The notes below the pieces were generated by a model. That model saw only the letters and a list, made by a program, of their open reading frames with translations. It ran no database searches and was not told the origin of the DNA. Of a stretch of 64,000 bases of DNA, positions 30,428-37,434 are shown piece by piece. The stretch spans positions 1,240,001 to 1,304,000 of the forward strand of contig NC_002689.2 of assembly GCF_000011185.1 (NCBI RefSeq). The letters are read 5' to 3'. Position 1 is the first letter of the stretch, and each line of letters starts with the position of its first letter. This stretch comes from Thermoplasma volcanium GSS1 (GTDB lineage Archaea > Thermoplasmatota > Thermoplasmata > Thermoplasmatales > Thermoplasmataceae). The translations under genes were made by a program, and so were the position numbers.

Positions 30428-31207
30428 TTACTTTTTGGTTCTCTTCCACTTAGGCTGTGAGGCTCTTCTGCCGGAGCCCATAACCATGATTATCATAACT
30501 CCCAAGACTACAGCAAATACGTAGAATATCCAGTCGTAGTTTGGAGGACTTCCATAATAGAATGATGTCGTTATGTAATTGCTGTTTCCATCTATCTTTA
30601 TATTTGGATTGTTAATCTTAACTATCAAAGTGTGGCTGCCATGTGCAAAATTGGGGTTTACATATGTTACATTGACCTCAACAGTTGAGCCAGGCATTAT
30701 TTTGGGAACAGTTTTTGCGGCTACCGGAATGCCATCAACGTAAAATGTGGCAGTTATATTATATATAGGATATGAGGTTGGGTTTTTGAGTTCTACGTGA
30801 AAGTATACTGGACTAACAACGTCGATAGAAATGGTCTGAGTGTAGTTATATTGAATGCCGTCAAATTTGGCAGAAGTAACTACATACAGATATAAAGTTT
30901 GAGGTACAGACGGGGCGACCATACTGAAGGTATACATCGGATTGTTTGCTGAATAATGATGTATAGTGCTTGTAGGACTTATCCCAGTAAGATTTGTTCC
31001 GGCGAAATAAACTGTAAAATTGTAGTTAGCGAAGTTAGCTGTGCTAACAATAGTGACGTTAAAAGATTGCCCAGCCCCCACATCTGATGGATATTTTATG
31101 CTGGAGGTATAAAATGGAGCAGTAGCAGCATTTGATCCTACACTTGACAGTACCATTAAGAGCGCAAATATAAGTGCAACTGAATAGACGATGTACTTGC
31201 TCTTCAT
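30428..31207 (-). CDS. Secreted, membrane-tethered beta-rich protein (AglB partner)
   Basis: A 259-residue protein with a signal peptide (about 5-27), two Ig-like or CARDB-like beta domains (VGAGQSFNVTIVSTANFANYNF; PSVPQTLYLYVVTSAKFDG; PIYNITATFYVDGIPVAAK) and a C-terminal membrane helix (225-242) before a basic tail (GRRASQPKWKRTKK). It has several N-x-S/T sequons. Its ATG overlaps the aglB stop (31204-31207), so the two are translationally coupled. A role beside the oligosaccharyltransferase at the cell surface is inferred from this coupling. Confidence 0.7.
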   Translation of the reverse strand: MKSKYIVYSVALIFALLMVLSSVGSNAATAPFYTSSIKYPSDVGAGQSFNVTIVSTANFANYNFTVYFAGTNLTGISPTSTIHHYSANNPMYTFSMVAPSVPQTLYLYVVTSAKFDGIQYNYTQTISIDVVSPVYFHVELKNPTSYPIYNITATFYVDGIPVAAKTVPKIMPGSTVEVNVTYVNPNFAHGSHTLIVKINNPNIKIDGNSNYITTSFYYGSPPNYDWIFYVFAVVLGVMIIMVMGSGRRASQPKWKRTKK

Positions 31208-34200
31208 TTCTTTCTCCCCCTATACGCTGATAGCGCAAGGCCTACAACAACCGTTATTGCTATAAGTATAAGTCCTATTGTAAGGGACAGATACGGATTC
31301 CCGTGGTAATTCGATATAATACCCGTGCCATTGGCAACTACACTCACCTTGGAAAGCTGCGGATAAGTGGCATTCAATTCAATGGATTTATGAATATTGT
31401 TGTAAGATACACTCATGTAAAAACTAACAAACGGAGCCGGCGTAGTAGAGGTCGGAATCAAAGTTATGTTGACTATCTTTGATCCGAATGCCGATACGCT
31501 TACATAACTTGGATATGTAATATTATAATTCAAAGACCTGAGGCTCTGTATATATGAATTAGATATGCTCAAATTCACCGTTATATTAGCATTGCCAGTG
31601 TTATTTATCACTAAAGGCACCTCAACATTCGTGCCATTCACTTCCGAAGGAAGCGAAGAAACCGTATAAGTATAAATAGTCGGGAAATAGGCCTGGATAT
31701 ACTTTGTAGTGTTGCCTAAGGTATAGTTAAGATTAACTGGGATATTTACAAGGCCAGAACTTATTATGGCCTTAGGAGTTACGTTAACAGAAACATTGGC
31801 AGACTCACCAGGAATTAACTCTAGCTTTGATACATTGAACGCCATAGCATACAAAGATGTATTCCCGTTCTGAAGTGTTATATTAACAATGGTATTCCCA
31901 GTATTAAGTATTGTAATATTGTAATTTATTGGCTTATATAATACCGTATCGTTCACTACCGTGTATCCGAATGTTTTCACCTTAGAGACAAGTGATGTTG
32001 AAAAAGAATACACTTTCTGTTCCACTAAATTAAGGTTGATGTATGTAAGCCCGTTCACATAATAAGTTCCAGAAGTTGCGTATGAAATTGTCACATTTTC
32101 AGTCGGGAAGTGCCTGGTTGTGGATATGGAAGATCCGAAGGTGTAGTTCCCTGTTGGCAAATATATGTAATTTACTGAACTGTTTACTATAAGCTCACTT
32201 GACCCAAGTGAAATACTGACATTTAGATATGTTGGCTCACCGTTTAATGCAGTGTATATGTATACTGGATATGAATTTGAAAGACTTGAATTAAACACCA
32301 CTGATGTCTCAAACGGATTTATATTTAAGTAGTTAAATGCGGCCATTTTGTGATTTGTACTAATAGAGTAAACGGTAAAGCCCCTTGTGGGCAGCATAAA
32401 GCTTGCTACACCTGTAGAATTGGCTCTTCCGGAGGCATAAGTTGATCCGTTACTTAATACGTAGACATATGAGTATGGCGAGTTAGTTAAGATTGTTGTA
32501 TTTGCGAATATTTCTTTCATACTTACATTTACAGACAAGTTAGTATTTCTATTCAAGTATAGGCTAGCATTTCCATAAACATAGAATGAACCTGTACTAT
32601 TTGAAAACCTTGAGTTGAAACTTATGTAATAATTGCCAGCTGGCAGCACAAATGACCCGTTTCCTGGTATTACAAAGTAGGATCCCTTTACAAGATAGTT
32701 GCCGGATACGTTAAGACTGTTCGTAACGTTAAGATAATAACCGTTCGCTAAACTTATATTACTATATACTGTATTATTCGTTATAGCGATTTCATTGACA
32801 GATACTTTAGAGCCTTTCGCATAGTAGACAATATAATTACCTATTGGTACAGGGCCGAAACTTAATTGACTTCCAGTCTTTGTTAACAAACGTACCCCGC
32901 TTATATCCGATGTAAAGTTGGCGTAGATTCCGACATCAATGAGATTAGAGCTACTCGGTGTAATAGCAGTGTCGTTATAAATTAGAATGTTTGTTCCATT
33001 CCATATGGATAAGTAATAAATGCCAGGCATAATGTATCCGTATGCCTTACCAGAAACCATAGTAAGGTTATAGTTATACAACCCATAAAGGTCGATGTAA
33101 CCATTAAATTCTGGCTTAAGGCTCTTATTGTAAAGCTCAAATGATGCTTCTATTGTTACAGGTTTCATTCCTAGAGTGATAGGTTTAGCATTCAAACTAA
33201 TATTCTCCTCTAGGTAGTATGGTGATATCACTGTTGCAACAGGAGAATAAGTAGATAGAGGATATACTACGTTTGAGTATCCTGAATACTCGACAGGAAA
33301 GACTTCAATCAGTACGTTACCAGAATACAACAGGACTATTCCAGAGTGTACTGCATCAGTCACGTTGAAGGAATTAGAAATTTTATTGTTGTAAAGAGCG
33401 ATCGTGCTAATCGATGCATTGCTCAGTTCAACTGTATTACTGTAATTGGATTTGAGATTGATAACCAATTTTCCCGCATAGCTTAGTCCTGCAATAGTGG
33501 CAGTCGAATATATTCTATATATTCCAACTGGCAATCGGAAATGAACCGTTGAATTTGAAGAATATGGGTAACCTAAATAACCGTTTTGACCTACTATTGA
33601 GTAGTACCCACTTGATACAGCTTTTTCACCTACGTAAGAATCAAGAGAAACGCTGTATGCAGGTGAACCAGAGACATTTAACTGCGTATTTTCTGTAATT
33701 TCTATTGTCCGCATATAGGCGGTTCCCTTACCAGATCCGTATATTGTGTATACTCCGACTGGTATAACCACACTGAACTTGCCATTGGAGACGTTTACTG
33801 TGTATGTAGCGTTGTTAACTTGACTATCCATATAGAACGTGATTCTGCTTATATTTGAGGCTGAACCGTAAACCATTACCGCAGGCTGAGCTGCCATCGT
33901 AATATTGTATACTGAACCCCATCCGGTGAAGTTGACATAGTATTGCCGTGTAGCCGTATTATAGGATCTAGCATATACCGTGTAATTGCCTTCAGGCACG
34001 TAAACAATATAAGTACCATTGACAAAGTTTGATGTATAACTGCCGCTTGCTCCTTCTGCATAAACAACCATTGACTTTACAGGCTTTCCACCCACAGTTA
34101 CATCTGCTCTTATCTGATTATATTTTACAGATATATCGTATACAACCGATGATCCAACAGTAGTATTCAGTATTTGTACATCTTTATACAGTGTCCCATT

Positions 34201-37200
34201 TGCTAATACTGACGCCGTATAGTCATATGGAGGTATAGGACCGGTTGAATATCCACCATTCAGTATGGGGAATTTAGCGGTATAGTTATAGGTGGAATTA
34301 TAGAGTATTATAGTGCCATTATTTATAGGCACACTTTTTGAGGTGGAACTATTTAGAGGATATGAAAATTCTACACTTCCGGAGATAGTAGTATTTTTAA
34401 GCTGGAAGTTGTGGAAAAAGTAGTAATCGGGAAGTCCTGTTGTTGAATTAAATGTTGTAGTTATTCTTTCCGCCTGTGCATTTGTTATATGGACGTGCCA
34501 GTAAGAAATTACGTTAGAACCAACTAGCGTTAGGTGATCAAGCGTTCCAGTACTTATTACTACCGTATCATTGCCGGGTAAACCAACCAGGCTGAAATAA
34601 CCCGAAGAGTTTGTTAGAACCATTTCATGTGGGATTCCATATTGATCATATATTGTGACGTAGATTCCCCCTACACCCCGACCATCATATGTTGTAACTT
34701 TGCCAGTTATGGTGGCACCAGGATAATACGCTACTATTGGGTCTGCTGCAGAACCTATCTCAGATATAGGCGGTAGAAGTTGTGCACGGCCCTTACCTTC
34801 TGATACGAGCGTGTAAGCCTGTTGTATTGGGACTATTTTCCATGCGTTCGGATGGGCACTAGTATTGTTGTATGGATTGTAAGGAACTCCTAGGTAAACT
34901 AGTTCGAAATTACTCATATTCCAGGCTGGCATAATCTCGTATTGACCAGCCCCATACGATATCCCAGGTATACCATTTGTCTGGCCCACAGCTGAAGGTG
35001 GGTATCCTATAAAGAACCTGTAAATAGATGTGTTATAAAATGCCGGCGTGTAGGTTATATTAAGACCAGTGATAGTAGCAGTTGATGGAGTTTGATTCAG
35101 TGGGAATGTCCCCTCATCCGTAGACGCATAAATTTGATAAAATGAATACGGAACTATTTCTCCCTGGTAGGAATAAGAAACCTGATCCGTTAAATAAGCT
35201 GGAGCATAGAAAATTCCTGGATTAACCCCACTGAACGGGAATAAACTGTGATCTATCTGTACATATTTAACGTTGTAGCCTGTGGCATCTTCCAGTGCGA
35301 GGTAAGCACTGTTTAGGATATTGAGCGAATAATGACTAGCGAGATATCCCTTCAGAAACCCATAATATAAATTATCAGATGTAGGAGACTTAATAAAATT
35401 ACCATATATGCTAGAATTTGAAATCACAGTGTTAAGGAAACTATTAGGGTCAAAATATGCTTTGTAAACTGTACTAATACCCGATTGACCGAGGTATGGA
35501 GAAAGCGTACTATTTATTAAGGAAAATGATTTATAATTTGTATAATAGCCTTTAACGAGTAGAGCTATTAATATGGATACTATTTGACTTTGATTCTGCG
35601 ATAGGAGTATTTGACCAGCGGGTACATATCCTTGCTGGAAATCATCTGCCACTGTTGGATGCTGGCCCTGAAATACTTCCTGGAAACCATAGTCCCACCA
35701 TGACACGTATGCTGGTCTTTCACCAATAGGAACATTGGTATCCTGTGTAGAAAGCCAAGAAAAAGATTGAGCCAGCGGCTGGCTGGAATTATCTATAAAG
35801 AAACCTGAAGATCCAAAGTACTGGCCTGTTGTATTGTTTGATCTCATAAATGCTGGCAGCTCACTTTGTATCTTAGAATTTATTATGTTTGCATTGTTTT
35901 CTGGTATAGCTGCATTCACTACCCCAATCCCTGATGGAATAACAAGAACCAGTACAAGTATTACTGCAAATGCAGCATGAACCCAATTTATATTACCCTT
36001 TACAGTCTTAGAAAAGCTCGTACTACCAACGTTTCTTTTCCTAACTTCTGTAAGCTTTGCCATATCAATAAAGTATACCAGCAGCCCGCCGCCAAGTATT
36101 CCATAAGCTGGTGCTGCCGTTATATTGAACCTAGCGGCTTCGAAGCTCATAAATATTGATACTACTGCAAATACAAGGATGAACATCAGTGCATCGGATT
36201 TTTCCTTTACATATTTGTATATGACGTAAACGATACCGCTCATTCCTATTATAAATTGAGCGACGCCAAAGCTGTTTATATATTCGCCCAGCGGAAGAGG
36301 AGCCGCTTCCGCTATAGTCGTATAAACCCTTGACTTTATGAAGTATCCAGCACCTGATATCAAGGTATGCATTACAGTAGGTTCTATCTTAAATAGAACG
36401 AAAAATCCAGCGAGGGAAACAACGATGGTGAGGGGTACAGTTATTATCCATGGCTTCCGTCCGATTATATTGATGAGAAGGAGAAAAGCTATACCTAAAA
36501 CTGCAAGTTGAATTTCTGGTATAAACCACCCGTAAAGCTCACCATCTCCATAATAATAGTAAAAGCCCATCAAGAAGCCAAGAGCCATAGCGATTGATGT
36601 TAGATACGTCAAATAGCCTGTCGGTCTCCTCGTGAGCAGATTAATAACAGCCTGAACTACTATATAAATCAGCAATATAACTTCAATATATGCGTATCCC
36701 TGCCAGGAGAGCATCAGCCCTCCAATGGATGCTCCAGATAATAATGCATAGATTGTTGCCTTTCTATTTCTCTTATAGAAATTGATTATAGATGGGATGT
36801 AAGATTTAAAATCCAGCATATTCTGCAGAAACAACGATTTTTTGCTGGTTATAAGAGCCTTTTCAAAGAAATAAATCGTGAGGAAGGCAAAGAAAAGTTC
36901 CGGTGTATGCATCCTGCCATCGCTCAGTATTCCGGCCGAAAGGTTACCCGGCATCAGAGCGTAAAGAAACGCAGCAATAATGCCGGCCTTTTTACCGAAT
37001 ATCTCTTTGGCCATCAAATACACTGGAATTATCAGAAGAGCCCCAAAAACAGCATCGAATTCTTCAAAAGCATAATATGCTACCTTGAAAGCACTGCCGA
37101 ATATTGGCGAAAGTATCGTAGCTACAAATACTATCATCCAGTGGAAAAATGGCGGCCTCGGATTGCCTGAACCTATTGGATAGTGCAGAAATATTTCATG

Positions 37201-37434
37201 AAGGAGTTGAGTGTGATAAGTTAATATGTATTGTATAATATAATAATTAAAATACGGATCACTGCCACCAGAGTTTGTAAGAAAAGGGTATTGCATGGCC
37301 TGTGACCAAGAAAAGTAATTGGCTACAAATAGGTAGAACACAACTAGCAGGCCAAGTGCGATCTCTGTTTCGTATCGTCTTAACACGGATACGAATTCAA
37401 ATTGGTTTCGATGCTTATCAACGTTTTCTATCAT
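31204..37434 (-). CDS. aglB: AglB/STT3 oligosaccharyltransferase with giant extracellular extension
   Basis: A 2076-residue protein. Residues 1 to about 500 hold the multi-span STT3 membrane domain, including an early GSDPYFNYY acidic motif. The catalytic signature WWDYG is at 579-583 in a soluble domain running to about 890. From about 907 a carboxypeptidase-regulatory-like domain begins (ATITGKVTTYDGRGVGGIYV), followed by roughly 1100 residues of repetitive, Tyr/Ser/Asn-rich beta modules dense in N-x-S/T sequons. A C-terminal membrane helix and a basic RGRKK tail close it. AglB transfers lipid-linked glycan to Asn of surface proteins. Typical archaeal AglB is under about 1000 residues, so the extension is exceptional. 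Confidence 0.9.
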   Translation of the reverse strand: MIENVDKHRNQFEFVSVLRRYETEIALGLLVVFYLFVANYFSWSQAMQYPFLTNSGGSDPYFNYYIIQYILTYHTQLLHEIFLHYPIGSGNPRPPFFHWMIVFVATILSPIFGSAFKVAYYAFEEFDAVFGALLIIPVYLMAKEIFGKKAGIIAAFLYALMPGNLSAGILSDGRMHTPELFFAFLTIYFFEKALITSKKSLFLQNMLDFKSYIPSIINFYKRNRKATIYALLSGASIGGLMLSWQGYAYIEVILLIYIVVQAVINLLTRRPTGYLTYLTSIAMALGFLMGFYYYYGDGELYGWFIPEIQLAVLGIAFLLLINIIGRKPWIITVPLTIVVSLAGFFVLFKIEPTVMHTLISGAGYFIKSRVYTTIAEAAPLPLGEYINSFGVAQFIIGMSGIVYVIYKYVKEKSDALMFILVFAVVSIFMSFEAARFNITAAPAYGILGGGLLVYFIDMAKLTEVRKRNVGSTSFSKTVKGNINWVHAAFAVILVLVLVIPSGIGVVNAAIPENNANIINSKIQSELPAFMRSNNTTGQYFGSSGFFIDNSSQPLAQSFSWLSTQDTNVPIGERPAYVSWWDYGFQEVFQGQHPTVADDFQQGYVPAGQILLSQNQSQIVSILIALLVKGYYTNYKSFSLINSTLSPYLGQSGISTVYKAYFDPNSFLNTVISNSSIYGNFIKSPTSDNLYYGFLKGYLASHYSLNILNSAYLALEDATGYNVKYVQIDHSLFPFSGVNPGIFYAPAYLTDQVSYSYQGEIVPYSFYQIYASTDEGTFPLNQTPSTATITGLNITYTPAFYNTSIYRFFIGYPPSAVGQTNGIPGISYGAGQYEIMPAWNMSNFELVYLGVPYNPYNNTSAHPNAWKIVPIQQAYTLVSEGKGRAQLLPPISEIGSAADPIVAYYPGATITGKVTTYDGRGVGGIYVTIYDQYGIPHEMVLTNSSGYFSLVGLPGNDTVVISTGTLDHLTLVGSNVISYWHVHITNAQAERITTTFNSTTGLPDYYFFHNFQLKNTTISGSVEFSYPLNSSTSKSVPINNGTIILYNSTYNYTAKFPILNGGYSTGPIPPYDYTASVLANGTLYKDVQILNTTVGSSVVYDISVKYNQIRADVTVGGKPVKSMVVYAEGASGSYTSNFVNGTYIVYVPEGNYTVYARSYNTATRQYYVNFTGWGSVYNITMAAQPAVMVYGSASNISRITFYMDSQVNNATYTVNVSNGKFSVVIPVGVYTIYGSGKGTAYMRTIEITENTQLNVSGSPAYSVSLDSYVGEKAVSSGYYSIVGQNGYLGYPYSSNSTVHFRLPVGIYRIYSTATIAGLSYAGKLVINLKSNYSNTVELSNASISTIALYNNKISNSFNVTDAVHSGIVLLYSGNVLIEVFPVEYSGYSNVVYPLSTYSPVATVISPYYLEENISLNAKPITLGMKPVTIEASFELYNKSLKPEFNGYIDLYGLYNYNLTMVSGKAYGYIMPGIYYLSIWNGTNILIYNDTAITPSSSNLIDVGIYANFTSDISGVRLLTKTGSQLSFGPVPIGNYIVYYAKGSKVSVNEIAITNNTVYSNISLANGYYLNVTNSLNVSGNYLVKGSYFVIPGNGSFVLPAGNYYISFNSRFSNSTGSFYVYGNASLYLNRNTNLSVNVSMKEIFANTTILTNSPYSYVYVLSNGSTYASGRANSTGVASFMLPTRGFTVYSISTNHKMAAFNYLNINPFETSVVFNSSLSNSYPVYIYTALNGEPTYLNVSISLGSSELIVNSSVNYIYLPTGNYTFGSSISTTRHFPTENVTISYATSGTYYVNGLTYINLNLVEQKVYSFSTSLVSKVKTFGYTVVNDTVLYKPINYNITILNTGNTIVNITLQNGNTSLYAMAFNVSKLELIPGESANVSVNVTPKAIISSGLVNIPVNLNYTLGNTTKYIQAYFPTIYTYTVSSLPSEVNGTNVEVPLVINNTGNANITVNLSISNSYIQSLRSLNYNITYPSYVSVSAFGSKIVNITLIPTSTTPAPFVSFYMSVSYNNIHKSIELNATYPQLSKVSVVANGTGIISNYHGNPYLSLTIGLILIAITVVVGLALSAYRGRKK

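Follow-up and report, generated by a model that had tools for sequence, protein, structure and literature searches.

A giant AglB-type oligosaccharyltransferase and its adjoining single-span partner in Thermoplasma volcanium and across the class Thermoplasmata

Introduction

Descriptions of AglB present it as an enzyme of one subunit that works alone. In the eukaryotic oligosaccharyltransferase (OST), STT3 is accompanied by further subunits, among them ribophorin I and OST48, that are rich in beta structure and span the membrane once. The AglB-L of A. fulgidus (PDB 5gmy, 3waj, 7e9s) comprises 868 residues (PMC8342417). Chains of CarboxypepD_reg/transthyretin-like modules occur in NOMO2 of the BOS complex (PDB 9c7v), and CARDB-type domains are found in putative S-layer proteins of the COG1361/PACE-CTERM type. 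Thermoplasmatales have been imaged without an ordered S-layer, and cryo-tomograms of two members show an unordered exterior layer of about 20 nm formed by unidentified proteins (PMC12448462).

Here we analyze an aglB locus of Thermoplasma volcanium within a window of 64 kb, the whole stretch of DNA examined, and follow its gene pair through related genomes. In the open-licence literature we found no report of a giant AglB or of an AglB partner in Thermoplasmatota.

Results

The giant AglB occupies 31204–37434 on the (-) strand, as do all features of the pair given below, and is encoded in a single ATG..TGA frame of 2076 aa. The NCBIfam model TIGR04154 (archaeo_STT3) matches residues 29–809 at 5.9e-56, which falls short of the curated cut-off of the model. 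A match at 3.6e-16 to A. fulgidus AglB (5gmy, a chain of 875 aa) covers residues 43–603. Over this aligned part both proteins share the STT3 membrane region as well as the TIXE and WWDYG motifs. Identity to the AglB of congeners is 61–62% over the full length. Judged by these matches the ORF is one AglB-type oligosaccharyltransferase with intact TIXE and WWDYG, for which transfer activity is predicted, in line with an earlier sequence-only reading that had recognized one AglB with an STT3 membrane domain and WWDYG at residues 579–583. That reading had also raised an assembly fusion of two genes as an objection. This can be dismissed, since a match is present in 111 of the 117 genomes from the order, and most of these matches cover the query from end to end in a single frame.

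The STT3 membrane region (35917–37434, residues 1–506) contains 11 candidate helices by simple hydropathy, compared with 13 helices in an STT3-type domain. The first external loop carries the first DXD-type site within SGGSD (37258–37272, residues 55–59); in the sequence SGGSDP the aspartate D59 is invariant in 29 homologues. The second DXD-type site in loop 2 reads LSDGRMH in T. volcanium, LSGGRMH in several relatives and ADHD in others. Variation at this site was seen in L063, L064, L066, L074, L092 and L216, with LSGGRMH in several and GYANY in family f15, and WWDYG and TIXE (or TVAE) are intact in these relatives. The TIXE motif, as defined in PMC8342417, is TIAE (36307–36318, residues 373–376), and WWDYG lies at 35686–35700. 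For the DK or MI motif, we could make out no more than D..[ML].P around residue 728. The C-terminal globular domain of AglB proper (34729–35916, residues 507–902) contains 12 sequons where 4.9 are expected. A second, weak STT3-like match in the T. volcanium genome falls in a frame of 672 aa (G000:C1:618483-618998). The divergent neighbors of aglB in the window encode Pcc1, prefoldin and GTP cyclohydrolase, and in the relatives L116 (4622–6220) and L063 (5165–6778) a phenylalanyl-tRNA synthetase beta chain gene is located upstream of aglB.

After about residue 903 the T. volcanium protein continues for some 1170 residues up to a last hydrophobic helix; A. fulgidus AglB-L has neither such an extension nor this helix. 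We predicted the structure of the extension (31300–34728, residues 903–2045) with AlphaFold2 using 26 homologues and obtained an all-beta chain, a string of beta-sandwich modules, with a terminal helix (mean pLDDT 84.5). The pTM was 0.48, so the arrangement of the modules relative to each other is unreliable. The final membrane helix and a short basic tail lie at 31210–31296 (residues 2047–2075, the helix itself at 2049–2067). Both the long run of beta modules and the closing helix had been proposed from the letters alone, and the model bears them out. A Foldseek search with it returned generic multi-Ig or macroglobulin module chains at low TM-scores. The first module (34549–34713, residues 908–962) is carboxypeptidase-regulatory-like; its CarboxypepD_reg match is sub-threshold (5.7e-5), and in five relatives the domain is found repeatedly above the Pfam cut-off at 1e-8 to 4e-42. 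Two Ig/ASH-like modules at 31765–31926 (residues 1837–1890) and 31438–31635 (residues 1934–1999) gave sub-threshold Pfam matches.

Conservation along the extension is uneven. Measured as maximum residue frequency it reaches 0.69 at residues 901–950, like the enzyme core and including the start of the first module, which is conserved best within the extension; it ranges between 0.34 and 0.48 in the middle and is 0.57 in the last helix. AglB of Acidiplasma is without the middle modules while both ends and the partner described below are kept, as expected if the extension acts as a spacer. This short natural form of 1425–1442 aa was seen in L093, L095 and L096, the last of these being Acidiplasma, and the partner is kept beside it in L095 and L096.

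The extension contains 62 N-x-S/T sequons compared with 25.6 in composition shuffles (observed/expected 2.42, z 8.7), confirming the many sequons noticed at first sight. The reversed control motif S/T-x-N occurs 28 times, which is close to expectation. Sequons are thus favored beyond what composition provides. In 23 relatives the ratio averages 2.23. The enrichment fits self-glycosylation of the extension, with the sequons as candidate sites.

The partner gene (30428–31207) starts in an ATGA overlap with the aglB stop (31204–31207), and a GGGGGAG stretch within the last aglB codons (31214–31220) may serve as its Shine-Dalgarno sequence. Its product of 259 aa consists of a signal peptide, two beta-sandwich domains, a membrane helix (30473–30535, residues 225–245) and a basic cytosolic tail. 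The second half includes a CARDB domain (30587–30811, residues 133–207) matched above cut-off at 2.7e-6. AlphaFold2 gave two beta-sandwich domains and the membrane helix with a pLDDT of 88. Overlap, CARDB match and predicted fold all agree with the expectation of a downstream signal-peptide, Ig-like, single-span protein. The flanks of the helix, FYYG.PPNY.W and PKWK, rank among the most conserved residues of the partner. Matches to the NCBIfam S-layer model NF033506 (9e-4, far under cut-off) and to 2l0d, the solved structure of a domain from a cell-surface protein, are weak. The CARDB-type domain is shared with the COG1361/PACE-CTERM type of putative S-layer proteins, from which the partner differs in having only 259 aa, in a PKWK tail conserved in the order and in always adjoining aglB. 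With hhalign the profiles of the partner and of the AglB C-terminus match weakly at the last ~110 columns of both (probability 80); the partner may conceivably be a duplicate of that terminus.

We determined how widely this arrangement occurs. In the order, where AglB length is nearly constant at about 2050–2130 aa, the partner was found in 109 of the 117 genomes. It lies directly downstream of aglB in all 28 sampled loci of the order and its near relatives: 20 junctions show a 4-base overlap, three a 1-base overlap, four a gap of 4–6 bases, and the remaining one a longer overlap at the start codon picked by the script. Across the class Thermoplasmata 377 of 400 genomes contain an STT3 match, and among the matches listed most frames have about 2050–2400 aa. 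By script the partner was located beside aglB in 52 of 55 class loci; the rest are two recovered by profile and one shortened copy. With the partner model, a gene beside aglB was recovered in almost every class family that we looked at. Giant AglBs are also present in some lineages of the phylum beyond the class, and there the partner adjoins aglB in at least f39 (G430, G422) and f50 (G437). Several other lineages of the phylum encode AglBs of 916–1430 aa without the last helix. Families f46 and f52, which we suspect to be Poseidoniia, have an AglB of about 3050 aa with the last helix and a different gene downstream; in L189–L192 this gene, within about 100 bases after aglB, encodes a membrane-anchored subtilisin-like protein (VDTGID..HPD) in place of the partner. 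A few frames are interrupted: in L099 (E-plasma) AglB is read in two frames of 1232 and 916 aa, either by frameshift, real split or sequencing error, the likewise split copy in G070 may come from the same genome, and the homologue in the draft record L121 (Thermogymnomonas) is scattered across three or more frames, possibly by sequencing errors.

The long AglB is therefore the norm of the class and no novelty of Thermoplasma. The view that AglB is typically shorter is correct for A. fulgidus, which together with the model length makes up the comparison outside the phylum, and for the phylum lineages with 916–1430 aa; it does not hold within the class of T. volcanium. Of 31 class genomes searched for mcrA, 14 gave a match, which exceeded the curated cut-off in 13. 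The same giant architecture is present in mcrA-positive methanogens, and their extension shows no deficit of charged residues. The architecture being class-wide and shared by these methanogens, we dropped both a trait specific to Thermoplasma or to acidophiles and the suggested adaptation of a wall-less thermoacidophile, which finds no support.

The strongest new result comes from methanogens outside the 64-kb window. In family f11, which we suspect to be Methanomethylophilaceae, the 25 sampled genomes outside genus g84 all encode an AglB without the WW pair of WWDYG, without TIXE and without the loop-2 acidic site; a few of these copies retain the loop-1 aspartate. WWDYG and TIXE are also lost in G254 of family f32, which is nested among intact relatives with a support of 1.0 and thereby indicates at least two losses of the catalytic motifs. 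All 26 motif-less copies retain a frame of 1808–2544 aa, with a gene resembling the partner no more than 35 bases away. When these genomes were searched with TIGR04154 and PF02516, no further STT3 came up that was convincing; the one additional match, in G216, is a fragment full of stops. Pairwise identity among the motif-less copies is still about 41% in the membrane region and C-terminal domain, indicating that constraint acts on these proteins.

Sequon enrichment is lower in the motif-less copies, with a mean of 1.24 (n = 26) compared with 1.91 in intact ones (n = 29; p 1.4e-5, the rows being related). The intact f11 relative G393 is at 0.60, and intact f32 methanogens are at 1.2–2.1. Since the correlation is confounded by lineage in this way, we do not claim that loss of catalysis caused a loss of sequons.

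Discussion

We propose that aglB and its partner make one membrane unit, in which the two proteins would be physically associated. The STT3 core of AglB would attach N-glycans. The extension would form a stalk of perhaps twelve or so beta-sandwich modules, with the STT3 helices at one end and the last helix at the other holding it to the membrane, and where the enzyme is active the stalk itself may be glycosylated at many sites. The co-translated, single-span Ig-like partner would be a dedicated subunit beside AglB, and stalk and partner together may constitute a structural, coat-like surface element independent of the transferase reaction. Double tethering, beta modules, sequon load and a middle part that varies in length are what one would look for in a stalk or coat element at the surface. 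We give this proposal as a whole, with AglB, self-glycosylated stalk and partner in one unit, an even chance of being right. A self-glycosylated surface scaffold had been suggested before; the sequon enrichment and the persistence of extension and partner in two methanogen lineages that have lost the catalytic motifs speak for it. Its tie to a wall-less thermoacidophilic life is not supported.

Retention without an active site argues that extension and partner do something besides aiding glycan transfer. The two might otherwise serve catalysis as accessory OST machinery, capturing or positioning acceptors near the AglB active site like the non-catalytic subunits of the eukaryotic OST. A catalytic STT3 next to a candidate single-span beta-rich subunit resembles that complex by analogy, aglB and partner are strictly paired, and it is the module adjoining the catalytic domain that is conserved best. 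However, extension and partner outlast two losses of the catalytic motifs, and no eukaryotic OST subunit appeared among the best 50 Foldseek matches or the profile matches listed for either of them. Ribophorin, OST48 and other eukaryotic OST subunits were therefore discarded as identities of extension or partner, and we regard an accessory function of this kind as unlikely.

Retention without catalysis could also be accounted for by a folding or insertion factor at the translocon, with a stalk resembling that of NOMO in the BOS complex of eukaryotes, joined to STT3 and handling proteins emerging from SecY. NOMO2 is the best sequence match of the extension profile among solved structures (4.9e-7; 2.3e-9 with the full profile), its module chain is of the same kind, and Pfam scans of relatives return NOMO and EMC7 domains, mostly weakly. 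Yet the match extends over about 100 residues, and these belong to CarboxypepD_reg, a type of domain that is widespread; homology along the full chain to NOMO/BOS was not found, and NOMO2 is absent from the best 50 Foldseek matches. NOMO2 is moreover a protein of its own with no STT3 attached, and the heavy sequon load would be left unexplained, which makes a translocon factor decidedly improbable. We give the lowest standing to passive accretion, in which surface-type beta modules were added once in an ancestor and stay as a protective shield while operon inertia keeps the partner. Generic modules and the weakly conserved middle would fit; the near-constant length across the order, the frame, last helix and partner retained after catalysis was lost, and the identity remaining in the membrane core and C-terminal domain of motif-less copies all argue against it.

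Extension and partner thus probably have a structural surface role that is separable from glycan transfer, and the two presumably interact. A stronger version would hold that the Thermoplasmata oligosaccharyltransferase is fused to the protein that it chiefly glycosylates, a coat stalk anchored at both ends and self-glycosylated, which with its dedicated subunit contributes to the exterior layer, and that in some methanogens the enzyme has become a dead membrane anchor, a pseudo-oligosaccharyltransferase; this we put forward tentatively and would sooner doubt than accept.

A class-wide giant AglB with a coupled partner would be a candidate two-protein archaeal oligosaccharyltransferase, by our searches unrelated to the eukaryotic complex. 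The motif-less copies would represent a natural separation of the stalk role from catalysis, and they suggest that some methanogens gave up AglB-type N-glycosylation. For Thermoplasmatales, the unit of AglB and partner provides a concrete candidate, not a demonstrated component, for the exterior protein layer (PMC12448462).
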